This document shows, piece by piece, positions 12,001 through 47,900 of a stretch of DNA of 64,000 nucleotides. The notes under the pieces were generated by a model that searched no databases, had not been told where the DNA came from, and saw nothing but the letters and a program-made list of their open reading frames with translations. The stretch lies in the NCBI GenBank assembly GCA_022539475.1, contig VCMS01000035.1, forward strand, positions 88,436 through 152,435, read 5' to 3'. Source of the stretch: Gracilaria domingensis (taxonomy: Eukaryota; Rhodophyta; Florideophyceae; Gracilariales; Gracilariaceae). A program made the translations under genes and the position numbers. The first letter of the stretch is position 1. Every line of letters starts with the position of its first letter.

Positions 12001-12014
12001 CTCGCTGCACTCTA
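1..12014. repeat. Tandem satellite array, unit 962-972 bp, about 12.4 copies
   Basis: A landmark motif CCCAATGTCCCCCGCATCC recurs with its ATG at 364 (variant), 1330, 2292, 3255, 4219, 5185, 6150, 7119, 8087, 9056, 10026 and 10992, with a mutated copy at 11964, so the period is 962-972 bp. Copies are nearly identical and differ mostly by one-base insertions or deletions, often in short homopolymers. The array is open on the left and ends at about 12,014. The last copy, from about 11,600, carries clearly more substitutions than the others, as expected for an array edge. The short ORFs of 61-106 codons inside units shift frame from copy to copy, so I see no protein-coding role. Each unit has a C-rich stretch with two C5 runs separated by GAAAA. 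Confidence 0.97.
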
Positions 12015-15000: not shown

Positions 15001-15215
15001 GAATGGGCCGCCTATTGTCGTCTTCCAGCGCTGCTTTCAGACGAAACGGGCAATGGTTGACATGCTGTTGAAGAGATAAGACTCCTCGGCGAGTAACGAA
15101 GGGGCACCCAGTAGACCATGGGAAGAAGAAATGAAGGAGAAACGACGACAATGACTGCAAGGGAAGGTCGTCCAAAGGGAGAAGGAGGTCGAGCGACAGT
15201 CAAGATCGACGTCAA
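12012..15215 (-). pseudogene. Plavaka/Tnp2-like DDE transposase, copy A, near-complete but frameshifted
   Basis: The main frame runs 15,175 to 12,614 (853 codons). It contains a TDKSSTTL segment followed by an AYPLHLIFLNFSDELRRK stretch, a CHRC cysteine pair after an ADIPEAKNIL motif, a PLHNLHLGISK motif and a C-terminal EHAHLLFKRHYK motif. This order is typical of Plavaka-type transposases, which cut and paste DNA with a DDE catalytic core. A one-base shift near 12,740 moves the frame into a 242-codon C-terminal part that ends at the satellite junction. At the N-terminus copy A is 20 bases shorter than copy B at about 15,108. This shifts the frame away from the homologous start at 15,215 and removes the first cysteine of a C2H2-like finger that copy B retains (YYC...GCPF...H). 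Identification rests on motif recall, not a search. A KDZ-type relative is the main alternative. Confidence 0.65.
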
Positions 15216-15451
15216 GATGAGAACGGAGAATATATTTTGAGTTTAAATCACGTGCTTTCGTTCAAAAAGGAACGTAGGTACACGTCGACCTCAACACAAG
15301 GGTGTACTTCTCGTATTATCTACCACTGGTTATAAACCTGTGGTTTCGCAACGTTGTACGCTGTACAACTGTCCAATCTCGCACAGAAAAATAAATCTCT
15401 CCCTCCGCCGCCGCCGCCGCGCCTCCGGCGTCCGACCTACCGTTACCGTCG

Positions 15452-15480
15452 CGCGTTCTACTCCGCCGGAGTAGAACGCG
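15452..15480. repeat. Perfect hairpin in transposon 5' region (14-bp arms)
   Basis: The arms CGCGTTCTACTCCG and CGGAGTAGAACGCG are exact reverse complements around a single C. The equivalent place in copy B carries a different, longer hairpin at 46,094-46,168. A CCG-rich run of several repeats lies just to the left at about 15,403-15,425. Confidence 0.85.
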
Positions 15481-15713
15481 AAGATGTGGATGGCACGGAT
15501 CACGAGCGGCGCTCCGTCGTACCTTTCTCCGCCCTCGCACTCGCTACGAAGTAGAGTGCGGGAGAGAATGAAGTACGCTTCATGTCCGCCTAATGGAGGC
15601 CTCCATAAAGCGGACATCACCCGCATCCGTAATTCCGTGCAGTCTTTCCGTGCAGTCTTTTCGTGCGTGCTTCCATATCCTTCTACGTATCTTTTTTCTA
15701 AACTAACTAATCC

Positions 15714-16310
15714 TCACCACGTCTCTTCGCGCTCTGCGACATGTAAACGGCAGGAAAAAGGGTTTGGGTTACTTGTGCGAGTTACTAGGTCCCTCGACTT
15801 TTCTAGCGCAACGTTTCTGTTTTGCTCTATCAATGGTACGTTCCATCGCATTTCAAATGTATCCAACGGAGCATTGACTAACTTATGGATCCTTTCTGCT
15901 TGCGTATACAGGTAAATGACCAATTTCATTTCGTCTCTCAAGATCGATCTCTGGCTGTTCGGGATAAGCGATTCTGGTACTTGGTTGGGACATAGGCTGC
16001 TCTCTCGTTTATCGCATCTTGCGGTATGTTTGCTGCATGGGCATTCTTGGTGTCCTTGCTTGTGAGTTCTCGCTTTGACACCTTTCGCGCTTTACGATGA
16101 ATGGATTGTTGGTAATCTAACCGATCCCTTTCCTTTTTCTTCTTCCGTTTACGAGTTACTAGGTCCCTCGACTTTTCTAGCGCAACGTTTCTCTTTTGTT
16201 TTATCAATGGTACGTTCCATCGCATTTCAAATGTATCTAACGGATCATTGAGTAACTTATGGATCCTTTCTGCTTGCGTATACAGGTAAATGACTTTTGA
16301 TGCGGACGTA
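15714..16310 (-). repeat. Tandemly duplicated ~370-bp unit with a conserved basic ORF (copy A)
   Basis: Two successive units share the stretch coding, on the minus strand, for YLYTQAERIHKL and FEMRWNVPL. The right-hand unit continues into a very basic segment (KRKKKKERDR) and ends at about 15,938. The left-hand unit diverges after LEKSRDLVT. The same two units occur in copy B at 46,228-46,810. The reading frame is open but lacks an obvious upstream ATG. It may be a remnant of an accessory transposon protein that binds DNA, or an untranslated repeat. I do not recognise the protein. Confidence 0.6.
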
Positions 16311-16334
16311 GCTCACGAGTTGCAGGTGCAGGTT

Positions 16335-16484
16335 CCTCAAGTAGGGAACCATGCATCTGGGCATGGTTCCCTATATGAGGAACGGAGAGGATGAGGCGCT
16401 TCGCGCCTCATCCTCTCGGAGTGCGTATTTGTTCTACCGATACAGCACTATGGTGGAGGTGCAGTCTGCGGCATCTGCCGCAGA
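16335..16484. repeat. Cluster of three hairpins near the transposon right end (copy A)
   Basis: Hairpin 1 spans 16,335-16,380 with arms containing TAGGGAACCATGC and GCATGGTTCCCTA. Hairpin 2 spans 16,385-16,417 with arms GAGAGGATGAGGCG and CGCCTCATCCTCTC. Hairpin 3 spans 16,465-16,484 with 9-bp arms TCTGCGGCA and TGCCGCAGA. The same three occur in order in copy B at 46,866-47,013, so they belong to the element. Confidence 0.85.
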
Positions 16485-16784
16485 TTGCGCCTACACCCGC
16501 TCCATCATGTGGAAATGGTACATGTAATATAGCGAAGTAGTGGTTAGCAAAAGCGGTCGATAGAAGAATAGATACGAATAAAACAGTATGATTTCATAAT
16601 GGGCATCATCTGTACTAGCACCAGTATTCCATGCGTTGCAGGGTATCATTCCGCAGAAGCTATCGTGTAATGTGCACCTTAATGGAAACTGAACCTAGAC
16701 TTCGCGAAATACCGTTCAGGTAGCCCTCGACTAAAGAACTAGCATGAGTGGAAAAAACCCACCAGTATTTACTGCACAGCGATT

Positions 16785-16884
16785 CTGGACGACCCAAGCA
16801 ATTATCTCCAAATTTTGAAATAATTGATCTCGATATTTTTTCAAAAACTTTACTGGACGACCCTTGCCAATTTCTGGACGACCC
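16785..16884 (+). promoter_or_regulatory. Three subterminal CTGGACGACCC repeats, copy A
   Basis: The 11-base motif occurs at 16,785, 16,853 and 16,874, all on one strand and within 135 bases of the element's right end. Copy B has it at 47,312, 47,380 and 47,401. Short direct repeats in this position commonly serve as transposase binding sites in CACTA-type elements. That role is inferred here. Confidence 0.6.
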
Positions 16885-16917
16885 TCGCCAAAAACTAGCA
16901 TCTGCAAGAGATAGACG

Positions 16918-17200
16918 TCATTTTTTGTTTTTTTTGGCCCGCAAGGTTATTTTATTTTAATTTCTTTTATTACACTTGTCAAAAATGTGCATGTCTTTTC
17001 TTTTTGTGGAAAGGCCCTAAGAGCATGTCTATCAGTAACGTCAAATCGCTAGATTGCCAATTGTTTAGCTTAAGCACTCGAAATGTCATCTATATCAGTT
17101 ACCGTAAACTTAAAGTAAAATGCCATCGAGCTATGTCCAATGCCAAATCGCATAAGATTTGGCAAGACTTCTATCTTTGCAGCCAAATCTCATAGCCACT
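16918..17200. other. AT-rich spacer with a dispersed repeat fragment
   Basis: No gene is supported. From 17,018 to about 17,073 the sequence CTAAGAGCATGTCTATCAGT and the following 35 bases match, at roughly 85-90 percent by eye, a stretch at 63,058-63,112. This indicates a fragment of a dispersed element. Confidence 0.5.
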
Positions 17201-29815: not shown

Positions 29816-32359
29816 GGAAGAGCTCCCTCAAGAAGAGTTCTCGACGCAGGTCCCCCCACTACCTGTTGGAGAGTTGGAAGATCAATCCAGCCCCTCGCAG
29901 GCAGAGCCGCGTACAACTGGCTCTTGTGAAGGACACTCTAGTTCACGTGATAGTGAGCCGACGGTTGCGTGTCCCGCTCCTGGGATCGATTACTCCCTGT
30001 TAGTTCCTGTCGCAACTGATGGCAACGGTCGTACACTGGATCGAAGAGATTACCGTCCTGCCACGAGTCACGAAGAAGTCATCCTCCAAAGGGTTTCACA
30101 CTTGCCCAGCGGGGAGCAACAGGAACTACTTCGTGTTTTACTTGACCTTGATGTGGTTGCCTGGTCTTTGTATGATCTTCGACCGGCAAATGTACCAGTC
30201 ATGCATGAATTCTCACCGACGACCCAGACTCCGATACACTCAAGAGTTCGTAGGCTTCAGCCGCGACATAATAAAGTCGTCAAGAAGGAACTCGGCAAGA
30301 TGCTTGACGCTGGAATAATCAAACCTTGTACATCGGCATGGTCCTTTCCGATCGTCATTGCGACCAAAAAGGATGGCAAGCCGAGGTTCTGTGTGGACTA
30401 CCGAGCTCTGAACCAAGTTATGAAAGCGGAGAGATGGCCCTTACCTCATATTGAACAAATCTTTGATGACTTGGGCGGCTGTTCGTTTTTCACTACGCTT
30501 GACCTTTTCTCTGGGTACTGGCAGATCAGAATTTCACCTCGGTGTAAGGAGATGACCACCTTCGTTTGCCGTCAAGGAACCCATCAGTTCGAGGTTATGC
30601 CGTTCGGCTTGATGAACGCCCCCTCTACATTCCAAAGAATGATGGACTCTATCCTCAATAAGTATCCGTTTGTAAGGGTCTATCTGGACGACGTGGTCAT
30701 CTATTCAAAAACCTTAGAGGATCACGTCGAGCACATCAAGTTGGTACTAAGGACAATTGCCTCGCATGGGTTGAAGTTGAAGATTTCTAAGTGCGACTTT
30801 GCCCACCCCGAGATCGAACTCCTCGGACATGTTGTCGACCAGAACGGAGTTGCAGTGGACGTGAAGAAAATCGAGGACATCAAGGCGGCTCCGATCCCTA
30901 GGACGACCACTGAACTGAGGAGCTTCCTTGGTCTTGCTGGCTACTACCGCCGGTTTATCACGCACTTCGCCAAAACTTCAGCAGTTCTCCACGCAGCAAC
31001 GTCCGGAAATCGGAAGCTGGAGTTCAACGATGAGATGGTTGAAGCCTTCAAAGATCTGAAGGAGAAGCTAACCAGTCTACTAGTGTTGGCCTTTCCCGAC
31101 TTCAACAGTCCATTTCGAGTCGAAACTGATGCTTCTTCAGTTGCTTTAGGCGCCGTTCTCGCTCAGAAAAAATCTGATGGCATGTTTCACCCAATTCAAT
31201 ATGCCAACCGGACTATGACTGCAGCTGAAAGGAACTACGGGGTCTGTGAGCAGGAAGCGCTTGCTGTCATCTTCGCGTTCAAGAAATTTCGTCCATACCT
31301 TCTTGGATCAGAGCCGTTTCAGTTGATTACAGACCATCAGGCGCTGAAGTATGCGTTTCAGAAGAAAGACGTACATGGGCCATTGGCCAGGTGGCTCGAT
31401 TTCCTAGCTGAATACGAGTTCGAGGTTGTTTACCGCTCAGGGGATAAGAATTGTGCTGCTGATTATCTTTCTCGCTACTCCATGATAAGGGGGCATCATG
31501 CTCCAAAGGTGGCGACTACTGTTTCTTCCCCTACATGTAAAGCTTTCTCAGGCCTCGAACCCTATTATGCAAATATTGGTCGATATTTGAGTGACCTTCC
31601 GGTCGATGAGCCCAACTCGAGCCTCAGAGGGGCGGTCAGAAGGAATTCTAAGAAGTTCATGGTATGGAATGGGCAGTTGCATCGCAGAATGGGGTCGGGG
31701 CTACGGCTCCTTTCTAACGCCAACGAAAGGCGTAAACTCTTGAAAACATTTCATGACGACGTGGGACACTGGGATGTCAGGGCGACCAGAAGGCACGTCA
31801 TTGATCGATTTTGGTGGCCTAATATTCACTCTGATGTCGCAACCTACGTCAAGAGTTGTGATGGCTGCCAGTTCATGGAAACTTTTCTTGCTTACCGAGC
31901 GGGGCAACGAGCTCCGCTGACGGATATCTCTCACACGTTTTCAATTGATTTCGCGGGACCTCTGAGGGTGACAAGGAATGGAAATAGATTCTTGCTCATC
32001 GGGGTCGAACACCTCATGGGATGGCCCATCGCAGTGGCAACTCGAACATTTACTGCAGTCGACGTAGTCAACTCTATCAGAAGGGAGATTGTCACCCCCT
32101 TCGGCTATCCCCGCACGATTGTCTCCGATAACGCTACCTCCTTTCTCGCGTCAGGCGTTCAAGCTTATCTAATGCGTCATGATATCACTCTCAAGCCAGT
32201 GCTCGCATATGCACCTATGTCTAATGGACGCGCAGAAAGAATGGTAGGGACGATCAAGAGGGCGATCGCGAAAACGATTCATGATCAGAACTCTGATTGG
32301 GATGAACCACTCCCGGGGGTCCTCTATGGTTATCGCACTCAACAAATGGCCGAAGGATA
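29340..32359 (+). pseudogene. pol: Gypsy reverse transcriptase, RNase H and integrase (5' part), interrupted
   Basis: The frame continues directly from the amber codon. RT is intact with the catalytic VYLDDVVIYS motif near 30,680. RNase H shows ETDASS and TDHQAL. Integrase has an HHCC finger (GHWDVRATRRH ... CDGCQ, near 31,760-31,870) and a DDE triad: SIDFAGPL, VSDNATSF and GRAERMVGTIK. The frame is cut after MAEG at 32,357 by the DNA transposon and resumes at 47,445. All catalytic residues lie before the break, but the C-terminal domain is displaced, so no functional integrase is made from this copy. Confidence 0.92.
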
Positions 32360-34600
32360 CGTCTGTGTTCTGCAAAGTGGAATATAGTCTGTTCGCTTTG
32401 GAAACTAAGCTAGGTTTTGGGCTATTTGGGGCGCGCGAGGGGGTGGCAGAGGCTGGCACTCAAAAAAATAAGAAATTTTGGAATATTAAATTCCATCCCT
32501 CGCAGGTTAATGCTTGGGTCTCCTAGTTTTCGTAGAGGTTCTGCCTTTTTGCACCACCCCATGCGCTCTTTTCCGAGACCCTCTCTCGAGTCTGCGCTCG
32601 TGCTAGTTTGCGTTTCCATTTTCCTCTGAGTTGCGATGAAAATCACAACTCATCCCACCTCAATCATCCCAACGTTCCTTCTCATCCAAACCGCAATCAC
32701 TCTTCACTCATTTTTCGCCCATCCTGCGTTCGGATCCTTCCTCTCCGTCTCCCCAAAAGCTTTTCTGTAGATGTACGGGTAGCAACCCTCCCCATTTCCC
32801 GTACACCCTCGTCGCCCAAAAACAGCTTCCCATTCCTCCCCATCCTTCTCTCCTTATGCGCCGCCAGGTTTCGTTCGTCCGTTCCCAGTGCCATGCCCTA
32901 CGTTAAAACCCAGTCAACACCGGAGCCTCGATTGCTTCCTGTGGCACCTCTTCCATCACCATCCTCTTCTCCTTACGCCTCTTCGTCAGACGGCTCCTCC
33001 GGTCCCCGAACCTACCAGCCTTCGACTTCGGTGTCAAAAAGGACTCCTTCTGTGCCGCAACCCTTCCCGCACTTCCCATCTCTGTCCTTCCTTCTACATC
33101 CAATTTCAACATCCTTTCCTCCACCAACCCTTGTCTTGTGCAGAACACTTTCACCGCCTTCTCCAGCACGTCTATCACGCTTCTAAGGACCATAAGCTTC
33201 TCTTGCAACTCATCTAGGCCTCCTGGCGCACATTATAGTACACCATACACATTTTATCTCATCTCCATCTCTTAAACGAACAAAAAACTGCGCAGGATTA
33301 ATATCTTCTCAACCGTAGGCTCACTATCAACCCCACTCAGCAGCACACCGCCCATTTCAATCATAGTATTCACAACCAAATAGTAAAAGTACAATCCATA
33401 ACATTGCCAGGCTTGCTTTTATCTTTGTCACCAAAAAAATCTTTGTGCGTTTTTCTCCGCAAACCGTTTTCAATCTTTAACGTCCTTTGAAGCATGGATA
33501 TTTTGCCATTTGTTATAACCACCTCCACCTTCCATTTTACCTACGTCTACGCTTAACCATCATTTGTCCTTTTCTTCACGCATATACAGTCTTTATCTGC
33601 CAAGTACTTGTTGTTTGACATTTGAACGGCCTTTGCAATGGCGTCAAAGGTACCTCTCTCTCATCCAATGACGTATGACGATCATTGTCTTTACCGTATT
33701 CGTTAGACGTAATTAAAACCCGGGCTCTTACTAGATCAAAGAAGTCAATGCGATACCATGCAAGCAAGGAGAGTTAAGCTATTCGGCCTTCTGAGCTTGT
33801 CGCACACTTTCTTTTGTTCACCTGAATTCGTCCCCTTCCTCTTATAGAAGTTCTCATCGGACGATCTTCTGTACAAACCCCCATCTTTCACTAGTTAATG
33901 CCCACTAATTATCTTCCTACAATATCATTAAATACGGTTTTTAACCACCTTGCCTTGACCCGGATTAATCTCCCATCGAAGGTTGGGAAAACGTTAAAGC
34001 CGCTCTCAACAATTCACAATTCTCTTTCAAGTTGTAGAGGGCAGCGCCGCTTCTTTTCAATGGTCGTTGTTTCTCAGAGTGCCATGCAATAAGTTGTTAG
34101 TCGTTGTAGTGGCACATGCGTCAGTGATAAGATCGTTAGAGGCATGGGTTGCGGATGTTGATTGGTGGTCGAGCGTGGACGATGAGTGCTACTGACGGAA
34201 TGGAGAGGATTGTAAAGCAGAAATGTTTGGCTGTGCTCCGAAGCATCTGTGAACTATTTTAGCCGATTCATTATATACTCCTGTTCTACAGCTGAATGCA
34301 GACTCCTTTCGTGCCGTTATGAACGGTTTATGATACAGTTGGTTGTTGTTGTGTTGCTAGTAGACGTATACTCGCAGAGATTGGAATGCAAGTGAGCAGG
34401 ACGATGCAAGGAGCTGCAGATGGTTTTCGTTTTGTGTAGCAAAGACATAGTCTACATGTGGTGGACTGCGGGACGTAAGTAGTACGACGGGGACGAGCTT
34501 CTGTGTGCTTGCTCTCCTGCAAAGCACGGCGAGCACAATGGCTCGGATGTTTTATGGCAGTTAAAAGTGGAGAGTCATAGTTTAACTTCTAGTTTGAACG
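32360..34600. other. Left arm of the 15-kb transposon, no gene recognised
   Basis: ORFs of 192 codons (plus, 32,608-33,186) and 101 codons (minus, 32,903-33,208) overlap. The minus one starts with a leucine-rich helical-looking stretch (KLMVLRSVIDVLEKAVKVF) and may be an exon remnant of another captured gene. Nothing is certain. Confidence 0.4.
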
Positions 34601-34960
34601 GTTGAAATCAAACTCAACTACGCTTATAAGGTTAAAGATCTCGAGCACTGGAGTCTTCTCAAAATCACGGAGAAGAACTCGCATGAGCGTGGAGTCAACA
34701 TTGCGCACGGCCAACGTTGGTGCTCTTCACTTGTCAAATGAGCGCGAGAGCGAAATGTACGTGCACGCACCGACGCGCACGTGTATAAATTTTGTACTGA
34801 AAAGGGTCCGAAAGATAGGCGGTACAGAAACGCCACGTGCGCGCCACCAGCACAGCGCCGCTGTCTGCTCGGCAACAATCGATCAAACAGCGCCCATTCG
34901 CATCTGCGGTATCGCTCGCCGCACGCTCGCGAGCTGCTCATCACCGCCAGGCGAACACCA

Positions 34961-35310
34961 TGGGCGCCTCCGCCTCCATGCACGCCACGCGCGACGCCGC
35001 GTGGGAGCCCAACATTTCGCACCTGCAGAGAGTAACCGGGCTGGACCGCGCCGCACTGCGCACGTCGCGGGACTGGAAAATTGACTACAGCATGTAGGTC
35101 AGGGAGTGCGAGCAGATTCAACAGCGCTTTCGAGCCAACGCTTGCGGAGAATAGTATGGAGGAGCTGTTTAGTATGAGACACCCGGATCCTTACATTCCG
35201 ATCTATAAGCCGGGCTCTTCTAGCTACCAACAAAATGTGCCGCCGCCTCCGGAGGTATGTTTTGCCCTTTGGCTGCGCGTCGCTGCCGTCCTCATTGCGT
35301 GCTTTTGCTA
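34961..35310 (+). pseudogene. Possible captured exon fragment, unknown
   Basis: A frame from ATG 34,961 (MGASASMHATRDAAWEPNIS) ends at a TAG near 35,096. After a frame change, 35,155-35,253 reads MEELFSMRHPDPYIPIYKPG and SYQQNVPPPPE up to a good donor GTATGT, with a candidate acceptor TTGCTAG at 35,310. The exon-intron look suggests a further captured gene. I cannot identify it. Confidence 0.3.
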
Positions 35311-35544
35311 GCTCGCTTGCGTTCGATTCTGTGTCACTGTTTTGTTATCTTACCCACATGTCCATGCCCTCACCACATGAAGCAATTCAGTAGTTCAGTA
35401 CCAAAGATTCAACCGTAGAAGAAAACCACAGTGCTTCATCAACGTTTTTGTCATCTTGTACACATCATCTTGGACAACACCATCCCCCGCCGTTTCCCTT
35501 CCGAGAGTCCCCGCGGAGCCCTCGAAAAAAAACGACAACCACAA

Positions 35545-36870
35545 TCATTGGTGCCAAATCTTCACCAGCTTATCCTTGTCCGCAGAAACAGCTCTCTTCC
35601 CATCCGTACCCCAATCCACCGTGAACACCTCATCACTATGTCCCGGCAGATCCATCTTAAATGTTTTCGTCCCCACATCCCCAAACCTTGCACGTACTAT
35701 TCTTCGAACCGCTCATCAACAACCGTACATCCGCCGACTAAACCACTCGATAAACGGCCGCAACATGTCCGCGGAACGTGAAGCAAAACTTGCCAGTCTT
35801 GCCATCCCAAAGTCTTACATTCTTGTCAAAACTGGCCGACGCGATATACCGCCCATCCGGACTGAACGCCACGCATTTGACCAGCTGCTGATGGAGGGTC
35901 ATGCGCGAAATGGGATGTATGCTCTTGGTGCGTTTCCAAACGTCTTCCCACAGCATCAAAGTGAAATGATCGGACCCACTCACCATAAGTTCCTTCCCGC
36001 CCGTACTTTGCCGTTTCACCTTTTCATAGCGCTCCAACGCCTCTTCTCGCGACCACTTGAGCGGCATGTATCCGTTCTGCTCGTCCAGAGATGCAGACGC
36101 ACCGCACTTGAGCACGTAGTCGGTAGAAAGCGTGATGGAATTCACCCAGTGACCATGTGCATTTATAGTAGACAAAGGTAAGCCAGTATCAGCATTCCAG
36201 ATATTTATACTACGATCCTGAGAAGCAGAATAGATAAAACCGTCTCCACTCCACACGGCAGTCGTGACGGCAGCTGTATGTCGCGCGAGCATCTTGACCG
36301 CGCTCATGCTAGCCACGTTCCAAATCTTCAACGTAGCATCCTTCGAAGCAGACAGCACCAAACAACATCTTTCATCCAAATGATACGGCTTCCAACACAA
36401 ATCCGTCACCCATTTGCGATGGGAAGCCAAGCTCTCACCAGTTCCTTTCTCAACGTCCCAGATCCACACCCGACCGTCCTTCGAAGCAGAATCCAATCGA
36501 CTCCCCTCTGTAGAAAACGCCAACGCCAGCACTCAATCGCGATGACCGACCAAGGAAAGCTTCGGCAACTGCGCCTCCGCACTCCACAATCTGACGGTAG
36601 TATCGCCAGAACCCGTCGCTATCAAGCGACAATCCGGCGAGAAACACGCCGTCGGCGCCATCCGACTGCATCGCGCGCCGCCCAACTCGGCGAAGAAGAC
36701 CGTGCAGCAGAGGACGCGGTATGACAGACTCTCACCGACGACGCCGCCGTGCACGTGGCACGTGACGCGTGTATTCGCGCAGACATACACAGCGGTAGCG
36801 GCCCCAGCCTGTGGCCCACTTGGCACGGAGGCGAGTCACGACGCCTCCTCCAGCTGACTATTGGCAATGA
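35545..36870 (-). pseudogene. NLE1: Captured Notchless/NLE1 WD40 gene copy, decayed
   Basis: Minus-strand WD40 repeats match Notchless, a nucleolar factor that recruits the AAA ATPase Rea1/Midasin to pre-60S ribosomes. Visible blocks include [55 protein letters not shown], and the NLE-specific ALERYEKVK insert followed by LMVSGSDHFTLMLWE, VAFSPDGRYIASASFDKNVRLWDGKTGKF and a last blade ending KLVKIWHQ. It is dead: a TGA at 36,533-36,535 and a TAG at 35,738-35,740 each replace a conserved tryptophan, and one extra G near 35,680 shifts the frame. The N-terminal Nle domain is not recognisable. It lies head to head with the phytol kinase fragment. Confidence 0.85.
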
Positions 36871-36981
36871 TCGCAGCTGCCGATTCAGGTGCTGACCTCC
36901 GCAGTCCGCCAACATCTGCCGACGCCGCGCCTCTGTCGCGCGCCGCGTCGCACCCTCACGGTGTGCGCGCGGCCGTCCGCC

Positions 36982-37704
36982 ATGAAGGCGACGTGCTTCC
37001 TCTCGCCGCTTCCGTCGGTTCTGACCGGCCGTTCCCACGCCACCACGCACGCTCTCCATCGCATCGCGCTCATTCCTCGCCGCCCTGCAAGCCGCGCCTG
37101 CCTGCAGCGCGGCGCGACGCGCGCGCTCATGCTGCCGGCGCTCGCTGACGCGTCGCGCGACGCGCAGCTCACGCTGGCGATCGTCGACGCCGTCACGCTG
37201 TGGCTGGGCGTCTGGCAACGGGTAACAGCGCTTGGGCTGGTTTTCTCGCGCACGACGAGGAAGATCATCCACATCAGTTGCGGGCCGGCTTTCCTTGTGT
37301 TGTGGCCGCTGTATAGCGCGACCACCCACCCGCGTCTGTGTGCCGCCTGCGTGCCGCTGCTGTTCTCCGCTGTGCTTGTAGTGTCAGGCTTTTTGTCTGC
37401 CACCTCCGCGCGAAGCGCGTTGGCGCGCGCGTTGTCGAGAGAGGGAAGCGCGCGTGAGGCTCTACACGAACCGCTGATCTACAGTGTGACGCTGCTGCTT
37501 CTCACGCTCTTTCTGTTCCGCACGCCGGCCGCAGCGGTTGGCTTCACCCAGCAAATGTACCTTGCCTCAATGGAAGGAGCCGCACTTAGCGGAAAGCTAG
37601 CAGCAACTGAGATAGTTTCAAATATAGACGTGCTGGTTGAACGAAGGAAGTCAAAGTCCTTGGAAGCACCCCCAGTCAGTCCCGCTGTATACTGTGCTCG
37701 GTAA
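36982..37704 (+). pseudogene. Captured phytol/farnesol kinase fragment, C-terminus lost
   Basis: The frame from ATG 36,982 shows an arginine-rich, serine-containing N-terminus resembling a plastid transit peptide. It then matches the VTE5/FOLK family, which phosphorylates phytol or farnesol in plastid membranes: RKIIHISCGPAFLVLWPLYS, a hydrophobic segment, REALHEPLIYSVTLLLLTLFLFR. The expected GGDG..ADIVGR catalytic block, which should follow TPAAAVGF at about 37,535, is absent. Instead an unrelated 55-residue tail runs to a stop at 37,704. An internal deletion or rearrangement during capture is likely. It ends 79 bases from the tail of the UPL3 copy. Confidence 0.7.
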
Positions 37705-37782
37705 ACCACTTTTTTTTTTTGACAAAAAATTTACTCCTTGCCGGCGCTTTGCCCGTCGACTAGCGTTAACTTAGGAAACACT

Positions 37783-40700
37783 CTACGAAAGATGGAACGA
37801 CCTCTGTCCTTCACGAACAACGTAAAGCACCTGCTTCTTCGCAATCTCATAAGAACTATACTCCGGGAGTTTGAAATAATTCGTGCAAGTCATCACGGTT
37901 GGCAAACACTGGTCCGGAGAGTGCCCGCTCTCCGGGGTACGTCGCACAATTGTTAGACGGGGATGCAATTTGCTGAGCCCCCCGAGCGGAAGAGCTGGAG
38001 AGCCAGTAGTAAATTGGATGAAACGCTGTTGATCTTCTTCATCCAATTCTGTAAGAAGTTGTAAGGAGTACTTCACCGCTGCGTTCTCGTGGCTGAATCC
38101 ATGATCATATTGCGTAGAATGAACCAAAAAGTCTATAGTCCACTTCTCATATGGCGGACCGCAGAACAACAACTCAAGTTCAGCGCTTCGGAACACTAGA
38201 AGACTCGTGATATCAATTAGCTCACCCAAGCCTCTCAAAAGCGCTTCATCTTGCTGATACACACCTCCAAAAAGCACATGGTATGTCACTCTTCTCACGA
38301 ACTCTTCAGCATTCTTCTCATTCACTTCAATATTGCTTTCGCCTTTCACAAGTTCTATCGAATCATCACCAGGCAAAACAAATGTCAGACAAAGGGCTGG
38401 TATCGAATCGCCTTCATTGTCATCCACCATTCTTATAATTGATTGCAGCCGAACAGCGAGTTGATGGTCAATATTATCCAACAGTTTCATAGCGGATTTC
38501 CCGCTAGTGTATCTCTGCCACACATTCTTTCGATCTACAAGATCCAACTTTGCCAATCTGTCGCGTTTGTATCTTCCGAATCCACTTTCTAGTATGGATG
38601 ACGAGCCTGATGAATCTGAACTTAAGGGCCCACAGCTGTCGAATATTACTCGACAGTATGCCAGGAGAAGTTCCGAGAAAGTGTTCGAAAACCTCAAATC
38701 CAGCAAGCGACCGTCAATAACAGCCTTACCCATAAGACGACCAATGAATTGGAACAAAGAGCAAGTCTTGGAAGCCGCAGATTTCTGGGGTTCGCTAATC
38801 ATTACTGGTAGGCATGAAGGGAATAGTCCTGTGCCAGTAGGCACCACGTAGCTTGGAGGTTCGTTCTGAACTGCCACTGTCGGTTTGGTGTTAGATTGCC
38901 TTCGACTTCTTCGTCATGTAGAGGACTGGCGAACTGGGACGTGAACATTACTAATGTTCACGTCCCAGTTCGAGATAGTATCTCGATTCTGATGAATGAA
39001 GTGTGTTGCCGCTTCCGATTCCGCCTTTGTCTTGATTGTCTGCGAACTGCTACTTCTCCAAAGCTTCAGATCTACCATCTGAATTTCTCTCGAGGTAAGA
39101 GTGTAAACCTCAAGATTAGGTCCCAATCCTGTACTAGCCTCGTTGAAGTATTCGACCTCCAGCACTGTACCATGAGAGCAATACATGTTCATCACTTTGA
39201 TCGCAGATTCGAGGATTCGGTCGCGGTGGATTCGAACCTTTTGGCGTTGAATACGCCCCATCCTTGTTTTGCTTTCACGATGGTGTCGAGAAGATCTGTC
39301 AGTCGCAACCCCTGACATTTCGTTGCGCGTCTGCAACAAATGAAGCGCTCGCGAAACGCCCAGAGACGTTGACTGAAACAGCGTTCTTATTATATCAAAC
39401 GGGATTAGAAATGACGATTCCCTCGCTACTGAGAAGCAACACACGGGCCCAATCCCTTCACAAAACGCAATAGGACCCGAAAACTGTCTAGTTACCTTAG
39501 CAGTCAATTTGTGGCTCACAAAATGTACTTTGGGGTCTTCCAAAAGGAAAGGAAGATCAGTGGCAAAGTCACCAGAAGCAACAGTGGTTGCGCTCACAGA
39601 AGTTGAACTAGAACAGATGCTTCAAGACCGCAATAACCGATGCTATAGATGACACTAAGCCAGTCTCTGATAGCTTGTCAGGTGAAAGGATAAGTTTGTC
39701 TGACAGCATTATATCTGCCAGTACTTCCTCCGAAGCTTCAGCATCATCTCGACGAGCCTTCTGTCGTCCAGCAGCTCTACTACGCTCTCTATGTTCCTGC
39801 AGCCTTTCGGATCTGCACACATGGCCCGAACTGCTCCCTTCTCCAGTAGCAGCATCAGAGTGGTTAACTTATATATTCGAGTTGGCGGGGCTTCTCGAGT
39901 TGTCTTGTCTCCTGGAATAAATCAATGTGTGAACATCAGTCTAAAGCCCGGGGCCCAGGCCTTGTTGGCGTGCGTATTATTGAACAACCGCACTTAATAT
40001 CGAACGACCTACCTCACTTCGGGAAACTCTGTGAGTTGGGCCGCGTTAAAGAGCAGCGAGGGCTGTCCACACTGAGTCCATGTCTCGCAAGTTGATTGGT
40101 GTTCCCGAATGATCTCCATGAGAGTGAACATGGTCGATTCTTCCAGATGAAGACCCCGGTACCGGAGCTCGCGTAACAAGTTCAATACTTTGATTGTTTT
40201 CGTCCTCCTTTTCCCCTTCCTGTTCACTGTCCAAGGCAGCAAATCGAACGATTTCATGAAAAACACCTTCACGCACAAACGCCTCTCGCAAAGATGGAGA
40301 CTTTTCTAATGCAGACGATGTTATCGCCAACCCAACAAGAGCCTCGCTCTTCGAACGGTTCTCCCCTAGAAGGGCAGCAACAAATGGACAAAAGCGAATT
40401 GTTGTAAGATTCTGTGACTCCTCTGACTCTAGTCCGGTTTCATCATTCATAGTCACCGCACTTAGCACAACGTGAGGAGAAATTGAAATAAACTTGGACA
40501 ACACAGACAAGGTCAATCTCCCGGCATTTAAGTCTGCCGAGGAAATGTAAAACCTCATCAGGGTCTCAAACAGTTCTGTTCCAAAAAGCTGCAACGGGGC
40601 AGGGTTCCGTTCAAGTGATTCTCGTCGCTTTGCATCGATTGCAGCAAAATTGGCAGACGGGCCAACTGCTCACCGTCTTTTTGATCTCGTTGACGAACCA

Positions 40701-41747
40701 TGGTGGTGCTCATGCTCACTGGTATCCGGAAGGCGACTGTCGGAAAGATTAAGACAATCTACAGAATGCATAGTTGAGCCTGAGCTAAGTCTGCTCTTCA
40801 GTTGCATAATGAGGGTGTCGGTATCCAGGATTTGAAGTCCAAGCTTGGCACTTCCGCGCGCCAAGATAGCAAGCATGCGAAGCGCAGCGCAGACGAGTAC
40901 GATTGTGGCGAGAGTGCAGGAGGAGATGGAGGTACGATCAGACTAAGAACCTTCTCGATGAGCTCAAGGGCATCTCCACACAGCGCCTCGAGCTTCTCAG
41001 GCGAAGATCTATACGCTTCTGCAAGCTTAGTGAAACCTACTACATCAGATTCTCTGATGCGTTGCTCTTCAAAGCTTAGCAATCGCATCGTATTGGGCAG
41101 CACACGACTTATCATTTCCATTGCATCGCCACGGGGTTGACGGCACAGGTTGCATGCGGTTGCAGCGGCCATTCTCTGTACGCCTATCGAAAAGAAGTCA
41201 ATAAACGAAAGCACCGCTTCAAAGCCATTCGCCGAAACATTTTGCTGCGGGTAATCAACACTCAATTTGTGCAAGGCAGACAAAGACTGCTCAGCAAGGT
41301 CGATGTACTCAAGAGACAAAAGATTCTGGCAGAGCGGTCCAGCGGCACCATTGAGCGCAGTTGCAGAAGAAGAAGACGGTGGCGCTTCCATCATATGCGT
41401 GAGCGCGCGTGCGGCGTAAATCTTGACCTTCACATTGGCGCCCGTGCGGAGCAATCTAACAAGCGGCGTAACAGGCCTCATGGCACCGGACCTGGCTGGC
41501 TTTCGGGAAGTCGGCGGGTGGGGGGGTGGTGCGGGCGGTCTGCGCGCGGGACGACGGGGCTGTTCTCGGGGGGCGGGGGAGGGGGTGGAGGGGGGGAGTG
41601 GTGTGCGGAACGAGTGGGACGGGAAGCGGCTGCGCGAGGAAGTCGGTGGCGGACGGGGTTTGTGGCGGCGGAGGCGCGGCGGGAACGCGAACGCGTGGAA
41701 GGCGGTTCGCTGGCGACAGGTTGTTGCAGACGCGCATCATCAGACAT
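37783..41747 (-). pseudogene. UPL3: Captured UPL3-type HECT E3 ubiquitin ligase copy, decayed
   Basis: From ATG 41,747 a proline/serine-rich leader is followed by armadillo repeats (ARALTHMMEAPPSSS, LEYIDLAEQSLSALHKLS, LSFIDFFSIGVQRMAAATA) and, at the C-terminus, a HECT domain with the catalytic cysteine in LPTVMTCTNYFKLPEYSS (near 37,860). This order is that of plant UPL3/KAKTUS and animal TRIP12, which transfer ubiquitin to substrates. The copy has frameshifts near 41,478, 40,860 and 40,600 and an in-frame TGA at 38,914-38,916. A candidate intron (GTAGGT to TTCCAG, 39,912-40,012) is retained, which argues for capture of genomic DNA. A 39-bp palindrome is inserted in frame at about 38,935-38,974. 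Confidence 0.9.
38935..38974. repeat. Near-perfect 39-bp palindrome inside the HECT copy
   Basis: The arm AACTGGGACGTGAACATTA is followed by one C and its exact reverse complement. The length is 13 codons, so the frame is kept (SNWDVNISNVHVPV). The stretch does not look like HECT-ligase sequence and is probably a tiny insertion or fold-back product. Confidence 0.85.
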
Positions 41748-41783
41748 GTCATAATGTCATTCTGTCGTACTGGCAGCGGGCGA

Positions 41784-42440
41784 GGTCAAGTTGTGTTAGG
41801 GTCGCTACCCTAACACAACTTGACCACCCTGCTCGCGGGCAGGTTACGTTTTGGACGGCGTTGCGTGCGGTGTGTGTTTTGGGAGGTCTGCGGGCGCTAC
41901 CAGAATGTGGTGAAAACGTGCCCGCGGGCGGGGGGGGGGGGGGGGGGGTCGGTCGTGTTAGGGTAGGTAACCTAAGGCCCGTTCTACACCGGGACATGGA
42001 CAGATTTGCAGCTGTCTATTGTCCACAATTTTGGGGTCGCTTCTGAGCGACCCCACTGAAGAGACACTTCAAAAATCGTTCTGTCAGATTTGTTTTTAAT
42101 TTCTCTGCCGGCAAGGTTGACTTGTTTTTAATTTTTATGGGACACGTGTGCCAGTTTTGCTTGTCCATGTCCTGGTGTAGAACGGGCCTAAGACGACCGG
42201 ATCCCCTCGCCCGCGGGCATAAATCGCACATTTTTCAAAAAATCGGCCAAAACGTGCCCGCGGGCGGGGGGGTCCGGTCGTGTTAGGGTAGCTACCCGAA
42301 CACAACCGGACCCCCCGGCAGGCGGGGATAAAAAAGCACATTTTTTAAAAAACCAGCCAAAACGTGCCCGCGGGCGGAGGGATCCGGCTGTGTTAGGGTA
42401 GCCACCCTAACACAACCGACCCCCCCACGCCCGCGGGCAC
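41784..42440. repeat. Family of palindromes around GTGTTAGGGTAG, within G-rich text
   Basis: Four related inverted repeats lie here: 41,784-41,825 (19-bp perfect arms), 41,949-42,200 (split by a MITE), 42,271-42,312 and 42,364-42,440. The last is enclosed by outer arms GTGCCCGCGGGCG and CGCCCGCGGGCAC. Three share the leader AACGTGCCCGCGGGCGG. They lie just upstream of the UPL3 copy. A 19-base G run at 41,930-41,948 adjoins the second. Confidence 0.8.
41976..42188. mobile_element. 213-bp PIF/Harbinger-like MITE
   Basis: Terminal inverted repeats of about 28 bp begin GGCCCGTTCTACACC on both ends with one mismatch (G/A) and read into GGACATGGACA. The target duplication TAA lies at 41,973-41,975 and 42,189-42,191, the TWA type expected for PIF/Harbinger. 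Without it, the flanking palindrome joins up again. It has no coding capacity. Confidence 0.85.
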
Positions 42441-43599
42441 ATTCTGGTCACATTTTGGCACCATGCCGAGACCTCCCAAAACACCTTCCTCGACACTTCC
42501 AGCACTCATTACGGTGCACCCGCCCGCCAACACGTGGACGCTGCTGGCCACGGGGATTGGCGGGAGGTAAAAGGGCTGTACAGACAACGCCGGCTGTAAA
42601 TAAATGAGAGTATATCTCGATTATTATGAGCGCTTAAAAAGCACGATTCGAGAGAGCACCCATTACTCGCATAAGTCTAGATCCACTAAAACCCTCTGCC
42701 CGCGGACACATTTTAAAACCATTTTTCAGCGTTTCGACACCTCCCAAAACACAGTTTGATGCATTACTCACAGTCTTTTTGTTGCAAGCACAATATAAAT
42801 TCATCATACAAGACTCAGCTATTTTTCGTATCCAATTGATGCTTACCTAATAAGGGAACTCACGACAATGTGTTTGCTACAAGTTGTGTACGTACTGACA
42901 CACTACACTATTTACACTGCTCAAAGCAGCGAGGTGACGAACTACGAAAGCGCCTCAACAGCCGCACGCACGAAAGTAGTAATGCGCCGGGATGAGCTGC
43001 AGATGAACAGAATGACGACAGTAGGTAGCTACTTAAAATACTCGCCACCATTGTTTCCGGTGGAGATACAAATTCTACCGATGATTTAGAAGAGGTAATA
43101 TCGTCTAGCATGAGCGCACCAGCTCTGGCGTTTTATGTTATTATCTGAATTTAATTGGTTCGCTCCGAACGGGTGGTAAACAGCAATGAAGGCCTTCAAC
43201 GACCATAGAATCTCCGAATTATAGTGGTAGTGGATTTCTCTGCGGAACACTAAAAAGAACTAAATAGAGTTCTGATAAGCTAACTACTACATGATCCTCT
43301 CAGGTCTAAAGAACGGGGGCTGTAGCAGCTCTTATATGCTAAATTCATTCAGTATAAAACTCTATGGAAGTAAAACGCGACAAGAATCGTAGCTGAAAGC
43401 AAAACAGATGGTAGTCATGAAAACCCTTCTGCCCGGCGTGCTTGGGCTTGTAGCACATGACAATAGTTCCAATATTGAAATCGTATCGCTTCACCTCCCA
43501 TTAACAAGGCCTGTCACCAACATTACAAGAGAAGACATAAATCGACGTGTTGTGGAGATACCGTAAAATGCTGCCAATGGTGTTAGTTCTTCTTCTATT
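42441..43599. other. Transposon interior, no gene seen
   Basis: AT-rich sequence between the palindromes and the transposase copy B. ORFs are short and overlapping. Homology with copy A becomes visible only from about 43,600. Confidence 0.5.
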
Positions 43600-45823
43600 A
43601 AGAACCGTGATAAAACTTCAGAGTTCCACTTCCAAAGCTATGAATTGCTGCCGACCACTTTGTCGAGGAGCATTTAAAGGCTTCAATCTGCCACCGAAGA
43701 GACGAAATAGAGCTTTCACTACATCATGGGCCACGATTGCCCCTATAAGTAGTCCAAGCGACGTCCGAGTACCGAGAGAAAATTGTTCTCATTGGGGCCG
43801 TGTCCTGCGCTCCCTATCAGATTTCAAAGAATTCCATCATGAAAGGAAAAACATGTCAATATCTTTGTACGCTTTGGCCTCCATCATTCGAAGGAGATCT
43901 GCCTTGGTGAAGGTTCCATTCAGTAACCTGCCTTTCTTCGGCGTGGACAAATCTGTATGCAAACTTCTGGCAGAAAAGTTGCATGGCATGGGGGATAGAT
44001 TTGCGTTTGTAAAGTTCCGGATTTGAGTACGTATCGTTCGAAATGAACGTGACGCGGATGATTCTTTTGCAGTGCTTAGGGTCTCTGACTACACTCTCTC
44101 GATTTCTGGAGTATTAATCGGTTTCAATATGCCGAGATGCAAGTTGCGTAACTGTTCAAAGAGAGCTCTCCTTGTTCCGAACAGACTGCATGGAAATAAC
44201 CCCTGGATGAATCTTACAGTCAAGGAGGTTTTGATGGACGACAGAATAAGAGATATGGAATTAGAACGCATGAGAGTATCCGACTTAGATCTCTTCTCCC
44301 TTGTACGACGTAAACTTCTTTCTCTCTCGCCTTTCTTTGCATATTCGAGAATAACTGAGTATGTCTTTCTGACGCTTTTAGTGTGGTTTTGAGAGTGTCC
44401 AGTGAATGAAGTAAGAACATTACTGAATAAAGATGAGGGAGGGGCTTTGCATCTATGACAAGGGCTTCGCGTTTTGGTCCCATGAAGAGTAGACAGAATG
44501 TCCTTAGCCTCAGAATATCCGCACAAAAACTTGCAGAGGATGGCACACTCGATATAGTGCGTCTTCGCCGATGAAATGAAAACCTTTCTGCATTAGATTT
44601 AGAATTTGCTACAAGATTTGACAAAGAGATTCTTGAAGGATGTGCATCCTGGAATCGCGTAAAGACTTGCTAGAAACGAATGGGATTGCGTCTGCTTCAG
44701 ATGCGAAAAACTGTACCAGTGTTGTAGGAAAGTATGCCACTACTGTGAGGTCATCACGGATGCGCTTACGTCGTAGCTCGTCGGAGATGTTGAGAAAGAT
44801 GAGGTGAAGAGGATAAGCAGTAACCGATGTTTTCTTTAGAGTTGTTGAAGACTTATCGGTGCATACCTGCAGATGACCTACAAAAGATTCCCTTTAACTT
44901 ATTTCTTGGGAGTACCACGCTATTCTACTATCCAAAGAGCCCCTCACTACTTCCTTAAGTTTTGAGGTGGCGTCTCTTGCGAGAGAGCCGGACATGGAGT
45001 GAGATATTTTCGTGGAGTGGGTCTGATGTACAGGGTGGAAGAATGTGTTTTCGTTGTTAGCCAACTGGAGCTGTTTCACAAATGTCTGAACGATGTCTCT
45101 GATGTAGAGGGTGGCGCTGAACTTACATCCTTCTGGCGAGACAGTTCTTCGATGGAAACCGTCTTTTGAGGCGTATCGTTCGAAAATAGCGTTCTTCAGT
45201 TCTGTACAGCGCTTGGAACTTGTTATGGTCTCGTTGAATCGCTTTTGCGAGAATCGCGGGTCCCAAAGTAGCCCAATGAACTCGTCTGCCTCACCATGAC
45301 CGAGGTTGGAAGCTACTGAAGCCAGACAAACCGTGAGATAATCCATATGGAAATCACCGAGGGCCTCCTCAGAAGGCACTGGGCGTTAACTGCTTCCGTG
45401 TTCTCGCTCTAATGCCGCGGGACCTGAGGAAGGAGAAACACAATGCGAAGTGTCCGGAATGGGAGGGGCGCACGGAGTGGGGTCAACAATGTCCTCGGAC
45501 ACCGGAGGCTCGGGAAGGCGACAAGGGGCAGTGACCGTTTCGGAAGATGCGGGCGCGGGCGCGGAAAGCTTGAGACGCTTGCTTCTTCGAATGGGCCGCC
45601 TATTGTCGTCTTCCAGCGCGGCTTTCAGACGAAACAGGCAATGGTTGACATGTTGTTGAAGAGATAAGACTCCTCGGCGAGTAACGAAGGGGCACCCACG
45701 CTTCTTATATGTACAGTAATAGACCATGGGAAGAAGAAATGAAGGAGAAACGACGACAAAGCCGGCAAGAGAAGGTCGTCCGAGGGGAGAAAGAGGTCGT
45801 GCGACAGTGAAGTTCGACGTCAA
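43600..45823 (-). pseudogene. Plavaka-like transposase copy B, dead
   Basis: The N-terminus from ATG 45,823 is complete here, with the cysteine-histidine finger YYCTYKKRGCPF...QQHVNH that copy A lacks. Two in-frame stops follow: a TAA in place of a serine codon in GSSSRP at about 45,387, and a TAA after SQEIS at 44,894-44,896. Further left, frames shift and similarity to copy A drops. The C-terminal 300 or so codons are missing. Compared with copy A, identity is high on the right (about 45,000 onward) and clearly lower left of about 44,640. Confidence 0.75.
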
Positions 45824-46093
45824 GCGGAGAACGGATAATATATTTTGAGTTTAAATCACGTGCTTTCGTTCAAAAAGGAACGTAGGTACACGTCGACCTC
45901 AACACAAGGGTGTACTTCTCGTATTATCTACCACTGGTTATAAACCTGTGGTTTTGAAAAGTTGTACGCTGTACACCTGTCCAATCTCGCACAGAAAAAT
46001 AAATCTCTTCCCTCCGCCGCCGCCGCGCCTCCGACGTCCGACCTTCCGTTACCGTCGTGAACCGTGCCATCCACATCCTCGCGTTATACTCCG

Positions 46094-46168
46094 CTCCGTC
46101 GTACTTTTTTCCGCCCTCTACTTTATGGAGGCTCCATAAAGTAGAGGGCGGGAAAAAGTGGGACGGAG
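46094..46168. repeat. Long hairpin upstream of transposase copy B (about 36-bp arms)
   Basis: Arms CTCCGTC...CCGCCCTCTACTTTATGGA and its near-perfect complement surround a few bases. It replaces the shorter hairpins seen at the equivalent place in copy A. Confidence 0.85.
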
Positions 46169-46227
46169 TCATCCGTATCTCACGGATGTATTCCGTGCAG
46201 TCTTTTCGTACGTTCTTCTCTATCCTT

Positions 46228-46810
46228 CTACGACACCTTTCGCGCTTTACGATGAATGGATTGTTGGCAATCTAACCGATCCCTTTCCTTCTTCTTCTTC
46301 CTTTTGTGAGTTACTAGGGCCCTCGACTTTTCTAGCGCAACGTTTCTGTTTTGCTTTATCAAGGGTACGTTCCATCGCATTTCAAATGTATCCAACGGAG
46401 CATTGACTAACTTTTGGTTACTTTCTGCTTGCGTATACAGGTAAACGACCAATTTCATTTCGTCTCTCAAGATCGATCTCTGACTGTTCGGGGTAGGCGA
46501 TTCTGATACTTGGTTGGGACATAGGCTGCTCTCTCGTTTATCGCATCTTGGGGTATTTTTGCTGCATGGGCATTCTTGGTGTCCTTGCTTGTGAGTTCTC
46601 GCTTTGACACCTTTCGCGCTTTACGATGAATGGATTGTTGGTAATCTAACCGATCCCTTTCCTTTTTCTTCTTCCTTTTGCGAGTTACAAGGTCCCTCGA
46701 CTTTTCTAGTGCAACGTTTCTGTTTTGCTTTATCAAAGGTATGTTCCATCGCATTTCAAATGTATCCGACGGATCATTGACTAACTTATGGTTAGTTTCT
46801 GCTTGCGTAT
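46228..46810 (-). repeat. Tandemly duplicated ~370-bp unit (copy B)
   Basis: Same arrangement as 15,714-16,310. Here both units extend into the basic KRKKKKERDR and SIHRKARKVS segments, so the left unit of copy A has been altered. The ORFs are open but small (80 and 95 codons). Confidence 0.6.
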
Positions 46811-46865
46811 ACAGGTAAATGACTTTTGATGGGGACGTAGCTCACGAGTTGCAGGTGCAGATTCT

Positions 46866-47013
46866 TCAAGTAGGGAACCATGCATCTGGGCATGGTTCCC
46901 TACCTGAGGAACCGAGAGGATGAGGCGCTTCGCGCCCCATCCTCTCGGAGTGCGTACGTGTTCTACCGTTACCGCACTTCGGTGCAGGTGCAGTCTGCGG
47001 CAGCTGCCGCAGA
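46866..47013. repeat. Three-hairpin cluster, copy B
   Basis: Counterparts of the copy A hairpins at 46,866-46,909, 46,914-46,946 (one arm mismatch) and 46,994-47,013 (a perfect palindrome here, TCTGCGGCAG with its complement). Confidence 0.85.
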
Positions 47014-47311
47014 TTGCGCCTACACTCGCTCCATCATGAAGAAATGGTACATGTAATATAGCAAAGTAGTGGTTAGCAAAAGCCGTCGATAGAAGAATAG
47101 ATACGAATAAAACGGTATGATTTCATAATGGGCATCATCTGTACTAGCACCACTATTCCATGCGTTGCAGGGTATCATTCCGCAGAAGGTATCGTGTAAT
47201 GTGCACCTTAATGGAAACTGTACCTAGACTTCGCGAAATACCGTTCAGGTAGCCCTCGACTAAAAAACTAGCACGAGTGGAAAACCCACCAGTATTTACT
47301 GCACAGCGATT

Positions 47312-47411
47312 CTGGACGACCCAAGCAATTATCTCCAAATTTTGAAATAATTGATCTCGATATTTTTTCAAAAAATTTACTGGACGACCCTTCCCACTTT
47401 CTGGACGACCC
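47312..47411 (+). promoter_or_regulatory. Three subterminal CTGGACGACCC repeats, copy B
   Basis: Located at 47,312, 47,380 and 47,401, the last only 34 bases from the element's end. Spacing matches copy A. Probable transposase-binding repeats by analogy. Confidence 0.6.
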
Positions 47412-47444
47412 TCGCCAAAAACTAGCATCTGCAAAAGACAGATG

Positions 47445-47900
47445 TATTCTCCATTTCAGCTCATATATGGAGTACGACCCCGAATGCATCCATCAGATCC
47501 TCCTTTCCTGATAGCCACGCCGTCACTTAATCATCGTGTGGTGGAACTACAAGCCTCCACTCTTGGGAGGGCCACAAGGGTATTGCAGCAGCCTCACCGT
47601 CAAGACGATGAGCGCCGTGGACATCGGTTCGCTGTTGGAGACCAGGTACTGGCAATGCGTGGTGAAGGCCTTAATCCTTCGGTGAAATGGCCATCATTCA
47701 AATCAAAGTTCTGTGGACCATGCCACGTCGTTCGGGCCAATCATCCTCGGTACATGTTGGTGTCTCCACACCGACGTATGTCGAGATGAGGCATTCATGC
47801 AAGACGCTTAAGACCTTACCATCCTAGACCGAGGCATCTGACCCCTAGAACAGTACGGCACGAAAGAAATGATCAGCCCGAAGCGGCATGCCCGGTCGTG
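47445..47900 (+). pseudogene. pol: Gypsy integrase C-terminal part, continuation after the insertion
   Basis: Resumes the frame broken at 32,359 with YSPFQLIYGVRPRM. A GPY/F-like module follows (FKSKFCGPCHVVRA, with cysteine for the aromatic residue), then a TGA at 47,787. The text after that stop is still protein-like in the same frame (RPYHPRPRHLTPRT), so the stop is probably a mutation. Confidence 0.85.

Follow-up and report, generated by a model that had tools for sequence, protein, structure and literature searches.

A decayed Plavaka-type transposon in the red alga Gracilaria domingensis and the probable capture of a contiguous six-gene block from a retained donor locus

The window under study is a stretch of 64,000 nucleotides from the red alga Gracilaria domingensis (contig VCMS01000035.1), in which a transposable element spans positions 32360-47444, with a flanking TA at 32358-32359 and again at 47445-47446. 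The ends of the element read CGTCT and CATCT (CGTCT..AGATG), and its two arms enclose the remains of host genes. A sequence-only reading of this stretch had recognized broken copies of NLE1, a phytol-kinase-like gene and UPL3, which are indeed there, but it undercounted the cargo, as phytoene desaturase and RWP-RK were missed and a small open reading frame (ORF) is also present. The features are as follows, in window positions, C91 being the contig that carries the donor gene neighbourhood.

32358..32359, no strand: left target-site duplication TA, from the empty-site comparison
32360..32376, + strand: left terminal inverted repeat, imperfect, agreeing with the other end at 13 of 17 positions
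32360..33968, + strand: left arm, without a match in C91:158001-178000
33969..34356 (right limit approximate), - strand: RWP-RK gene remains at the left edge of the captured block, corresponding to C91 174534-174437 and 173415 to about 173123
34961..35255, + strand: broken copy of the small ORF (MGAAAS...), which is open at C91
35549..36674 (limits approximate), - strand: NLE1 copy, lacking C91 170465-170798 by comparison with C91
36982..37541, + strand: truncated N-terminal part of the phytol-kinase-like gene, by comparison with C91
37542..37704, + strand: final codons of phytoene desaturase, in frame with the preceding kinase part owing to loss of C91 167602-169568
37783..41743, - strand: UPL3 (HECT) copy, lacking C91 163783-165143 and 161840-162315, and reaching the captured block's right edge at 41743
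41744..43608, no strand: GC-rich part of the right arm, with hairpins, supplying an ATG exactly at the block edge
44050..45850, - strand: decayed Plavaka transposase region, matching the 588-residue ORF of sister copies
46232..46823, + strand: pair of 218-base direct repeats within the right arm, by repeat comparison
47428..47444, - strand: right terminal inverted repeat, by end-to-end comparison
47445..47446, no strand: right target-site duplication TA, from the empty-site comparison
12013..16918, + strand: another copy of the family's right half, with an 861-residue Plavaka ORF at 12617-15199 (- strand)

Two of these names are assumptions of ours: we take the small ORF to be NDUFB9-like, Pfam giving no significant hit, and the phytol-kinase-like gene is presumably what we call it, a label which neither Pfam nor NCBIfam gives. 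The ORF at 36871-37701 consists of the phytol-kinase-like N-terminus joined to the final phytoene desaturase codons; thus the 79-base tail-to-tail spacing pointed out earlier does exist, but it separates phytoene desaturase from UPL3, the kinase part being fused upstream.

The boundaries of the element are established by the long terminal repeat (LTR) retrotransposon that surrounds it. In the genome searched (77.9 Mb in 680 contigs), 40 of 131 candidate places for this retrotransposon were scored and 12 copies were loaded, the window being one of them. When the flanks are joined, all 11 others align with them at 94.3-95.0% over 600 columns, nine of them ungapped and two with one gap, and the lone TA, free of any insert, is read directly in nine, the remaining two being in reverse orientation. 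The bounds and the exact TA duplication proposed from the letters alone are thus corroborated, and because of this empty site the possibility that the window is the native locus of the genes is ruled out. The short terminal inverted repeats are also present as described. A staggered insertion would have produced the TA duplication. Many other copies with related ends were found, but TA is not constant beside their single ends: the two adjoining bases vary, TA as a duplicated pair belonging to the window copy, and past the right end of the second copy in the window they are TC. A TA-specific insertion is therefore unsupported. Helitrons have neither target-site duplications nor terminal inverted repeats, and as both are present here a Helitron was discarded. 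The host retrotransposon itself (window 26865-32384) holds two long adjacent open frames in different reading frames, one protease-like and the other with reverse transcriptase, RNase H and integrase.

Probes for the HECT region, the kinase part, the NLE1 side and the UPL3 side all converge on contig C91, which is the donor. Window 33969-41743 derives from a contiguous block of 12,963 bases at C91:161572-174534: the window matches C91:158001-178000 in six colinear pieces that extend from 161572 to 174534, without a match elsewhere in the interval, and lacks C91 173416-174436, 170465-170798, 167602-169568, 163783-165143 and 161840-162315. The order of genes at C91 is UPL3, phytoene desaturase, the phytol-kinase-like gene, NLE1, the small ORF and RWP-RK, with a gene for an SWIB protein nearby but outside the block. 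UPL3 there has a 1927-codon frame with HECT, Arm and TRIP12-type repeats, and phytoene desaturase scores 758 bits to an NCBIfam equivalog. The NLE1 protein from this locus is 86% identical to an Agarophyton chilense protein and 73% to a Gracilariopsis chorda protein, in accordance with a Gracilaria-like host. The anticipated neighbourhood of the genes in the same order elsewhere was thus found at C91, and the earlier idea that one contiguous genomic block was captured agrees with the single donor, the shared gene order and the donor flanks outside the block, which have no matches elsewhere among the places scored with the edge probes. Two other origins were discarded, namely separate insertion of single genes, since the pieces are colinear with C91, and retroposition, because the intergenic spacers are retained. 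A search with the HECT region against plasmid records gave no match.

We have also analysed the two edges of the block across the family. With a left-edge probe of 3.2 kb, 40 of 65 candidates were scored, giving 39 places besides C91, the window included; in 33 of these the outermost piece is seen and none extends past the edge, 32 of the 33 stopping at probe position 2135 or 2136 (C91:174534 or 174535). Beside this edge 30 of the 33 have the same 1,021-base gap (probe 1016 to 2038), the places on C96, C463 and C26 being off by a few to 45 bases. A right-edge probe of 2.5 kb (40 of 74 candidates scored) likewise gave 39 places besides C91, again including the window, of which 37 begin at C91:161572 or 161573. 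As copies from several subfamilies have both the right and the left block edges in common, a single capture seeded a family. The window, C2, C240 and the B copies also have a phytoene desaturase deletion in common, whereas C240 does not have the deletions in NLE1 and UPL3, and such shared inner deletions allow the copies to be ordered. For the element ends, 40 of 652 candidates were scored on the left and 40 of 630 on the right, so that copy numbers are not totals. That an assembly artefact joined unrelated pieces is hardly credible: the genome is in 680 contigs and the copies on C247 and C469 stop at contig ends, but identical junctions recur on many contigs at differing divergence, and the empty site is clean.

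The opposite direction of transfer, in which an element copy settled at C91 and its genes became the host genes or took their place, is in keeping with the fact that every sampled copy has sequence in common with C91. We nevertheless regard it as most improbable, as C91:158001-178000 contains no match to the element arms and long frames are open there for UPL3, phytoene desaturase, NLE1 and RWP-RK, the last of which spans the very 1,021 bases missing from the copies that reach the left edge. In addition, in an alignment and tree of the HECT region comprising 13 element copies (window included) together with C91, the latter is central, with a branch of 0.0012, and the copies lie 2.9-5.2% away.

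Taken as a whole, it is very probable that the window holds a decayed copy of a Plavaka-type element whose ancestor captured six genes from C91 once, at the DNA level, after which the family spread and decayed. The ancestor took up C91:161572-174534, with most of the RWP-RK gene, while the donor was retained. As to the route, two neighbouring elements, each stripped of its inner end, may have come to act as a single hybrid element, one providing the left end and the other the right, around the chromosomal DNA lying between them; this is the route proposed for Pack-CACTA, as described in the available part of PMC13317346. Transposase from intact sister copies would then have moved the hybrid in trans. 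The copies themselves have shed pieces through internal deletion and have gone on mutating. Two elements' ends also move the intervening DNA in the Ac macrotransposons of maize, of 10.3 and 28 kb (excerpts of PMC9910405); in those, inner element ends are expected by the cargo, whereas here no inner inverted-repeat ends were seen by eye at 33968/33969 and 41743/41744, and the family is an old one whose copies are dispersed and decayed. A macrotransposon with inner ends beside its cargo is thus not what was found, the arms running straight into the block. Alternatively, repair after excision may have copied a neighbouring or distant locus into a broken element, with no need for a two-element hybrid. 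This gap filling has been argued, along with short shared sequence, for animal Pack-TIR elements (consulted excerpts of PMC8277862), and it too leaves the donor in place; on the other hand, the pieces captured by animal Pack-TIRs have a median of 224 bases in the same source, against 12,963 here, and at neither block edge is there clear shared sequence by eye. We consider it a serious possibility, though not the probable one.

A number of observations weigh against a single capture followed by simple descent. The outermost left piece is not shown in six of the 39 places, two of which are located at the end of a contig or close to it; on the right, C2 begins 8 bases inward and one place on C164 18 bases outward. 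Both ends plus the duplication were verified for the window copy only, and a block-free element did not turn up, no search having been aimed at one. At C91 itself the phytol-kinase-like gene (L056, near C91:169690) is frame-shifted by a 2-base insertion that is absent from all eight aligned element copies, and which reflects either a slip in the assembly or a genuine change. Finally, the cargo falls into two divergence classes, the second with roughly double the distance from C91 that the class of the window has, and C156 is a mosaic of both: it shares the UPL3 deletion with the window and C2, yet it has kept much of phytoene desaturase. Specifically, C156:155732-162529 (partly within L007) is 94-96% like C91 or the window over UPL3 and half of phytoene desaturase, and 86-88% thereafter. 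There must have been some recombination among copies, or with C91, and the two classes together with the mosaic imply that plain descent from one capture leaves some bases unexplained.

These data bring in a variant of the account, in which there was one capture but recombination with C91 or with another element later refreshed the inner cargo of the younger subfamilies, including the window copy, so that the present cargo would not be the copy first captured. Such an exchange would explain why the kinase and desaturase parts of the other subfamily are 85-88% like the window or C91 while those of the window class are at 94-96%, why the right end of such a divergent copy (C201) is nevertheless 95% like that of the window, why C156 alternates between both classes, and why the HECT copies radiate from C91 nearly stemless, with two shared sites. 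Against it, 19 of 150 bases in the desaturase-UPL3 spacer of the window are unlike C91, as high a proportion as at the edges, and individual refreshment of the window, C2, C240 and the B copies is contradicted by the inner deletions that all of them have. We hold this refreshment to be possible rather than probable. As regards the left ends, several others are 94% like the window; that of C247 was dropped as a yardstick, since the contig stops there and 301 of 1487 sites disagree with the window.

Returning to the account of one capture, spread and decay, the state of the cargo shows how the copies have aged. At least one stop is present in the C91 frame in 12 of the 13 HECT copies, the partial copy on C96 having none. 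Between the window and C91 the HECT region has 13, 17 and 23 changes at codon positions 1, 2 and 3, the stem of the seven B copies has 21, 16 and 27, and that of the window, C2 and C156 has 5, 5 and 6. With changes at all codon positions, selection on the HECT copies of the element is unsupported, and the cargo is shown to decay neutrally, without sign of selection. In the phytoene desaturase copy beside the C247 element, 90 of 978 sites differ from C91 (21, 29 and 31 by codon position) and several 1-base gaps occur. In bins of 150 bases the window differs from C91 by about 5-13% in noncoding and about 1-7% in coding sequence, as expected if selection holds the coding sequence of C91 while its spacers drift.

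The assignment of the family relies on its transposase. The 861-residue ORF of the second copy in the window matches the Pfam domain Plavaka (PF18759) at 2.3e-19, and the 588-residue ORF of a sister copy does so at 6.4e-17; the two are 88% identical over 537 residues. The transposase of the window element is decayed, and its pieces at 44897-45385 and 44223-44669 have no Pfam hit, but the 588-residue ORF is open in seven of 10 sister loci (L009-L018), the predicted source for movement in trans. A protein search with the transposase found three relatives among 7991 candidates scored, the best 46% identical; solved structures gave nothing convincing (best E 0.13) and an NCBIfam scan no match. Plavaka is characterized by C(2)C and H(3-4)H motifs located between the second D and the last E, and a CHRC string is visible in P0125. 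Plavaka belongs to the CMCT clade together with CACTA/EnSpm, Mirage, Chapaev, Transib and ESTA. The element is thus a decayed copy of a Plavaka-type, CACTA-related cut-and-paste DNA transposon, in line with the Plavaka/CMC-like identity first suggested. According to the available passages of PMC12730594, Plavaka elements have a target-site duplication of 2 or 3 bases, and fungal termini are TGT..ACA (A) or CATCA..TGATG (B). The present element shares a 2-base duplication and, in sister copies, the PF18759 domain, and its termini are close to type B but not identical; because the known termini come from fungi and differ from those found here, we use the label Plavaka-type and not PlavakaA or PlavakaB. 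That fungal paper concerns TET/JBP cargo genes, and its available passages do not mention block capture.

The second copy in the window (12013-16918) was recognized because some loci match both window places. Family members are also inserted in other members (L024, L025, L051, L052 and L032), for example at places matching window 12741 and 12845. Upstream of this copy, window 1-12012 has a strong strand bias (GC skew about -0.43) and resembles itself weakly when shifted by about 966-970 or multiples of this, that is, it is an old long-period tandem repeat; a run of the repeat finder TRF over the window, limited to periods up to 500, reported nothing for this region.

A distinct situation is found in the A-type copies, which keep both block edges while the middle is replaced, by 5.85 kb in C247, of which all but 1.9 kb was read. 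Here a chimeric ORF (L010:5722-7017) begins at an ATG of the element at the right edge, continues through 145 bases of the UPL3 5' region and then enters in frame an ATP-grasp domain (2.7e-22). It thus comprises about 49 codons from the captured UPL3 5' region and the last approximately 380 residues of a carnosine-synthase-like ATP-grasp protein. The latter part matches residues 158-537 of an Agarophyton chilense protein at 82% identity, and among relatives named for a function the nearest is carnosine synthase 1. A genome search with the chimera (97 of 159 candidates scored) gave 102 matches, many short or with stops. Nine places hold residues 1-432 in a stop-free 442-residue frame at 99-100% identity, a tenth (C524) is open over 1-425, and C208 has one stop. 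The element-supplied residues 1-4 match many copies that have the UPL3 part only, some weakly (about 1e-4), while C91 matches from residue 5; the second cargo class also matches this element-supplied junction, weakly. By sequence comparison, C211:34274-35416, which matches residues 52-432 only (97% identity, in a 599-residue frame), is likely the host parent of the ATP-grasp part. One subfamily is shown to have swapped most of the captured block for a second, host-derived gene. The family may keep assembling genes, and the chimera may be expressed and bring some benefit to the element or to the alga, which we consider unlikely. The other part of the A-type middle (L054:2438-5248) contains long frames rich in Ser and Pro, with a possible membrane span at their end.

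With respect to known systems, Pack-CACTA, Pack-TIR and Pack-MULE elements likewise have terminal inverted repeats around host DNA copied from a retained locus, and the window element shows these features, namely terminal inverted repeats, a target-site duplication and internal host DNA with the parent kept at C91. Pack-type captures are small, with medians of 224 bases in animal Pack-TIRs and 305 in Pack-MULEs (available part of PMC8277862), whereas here the block is contiguous over 12,963 bases, with about six genes, in a family that still has transposase ORFs. Among red algae, enlarged EnSpm/CACTA elements of 16-20 kb with 4-5 ORFs are known from Chondrus crispus, as cited in the available passage of PMC6431247; they are similarly large, and that passage is silent on a captured host block. 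Our literature search, which covered few subscription papers, found no report of this element, nothing joining Rhodophyta with Plavaka or Gracilaria domingensis with transposable elements, and, on multi-gene capture, no paper fitting by title; the portions available of the main text of PMC10388701 and PMC12502185 contain neither Plavaka nor CACTA. Pack-type capture itself being already known, the novelty lies in a red-algal Plavaka family having taken up six genes in one contiguous block and spread them.

Eukaryotic cut-and-paste elements have mostly been reported to capture short gene fragments. The present family indicates that such elements can take whole gene neighbourhoods and not only scraps, the block, which includes long housekeeping genes, having been spread here to dozens of places. 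As the donor, the block edges, the empty site and the shared deletions are all found in one genome, capture, spread and gene fusion can be ordered and tested. Furthermore, copies of this kind are likely misannotated in red-algal genomes as extra UPL3, NLE1 and phytoene desaturase genes.

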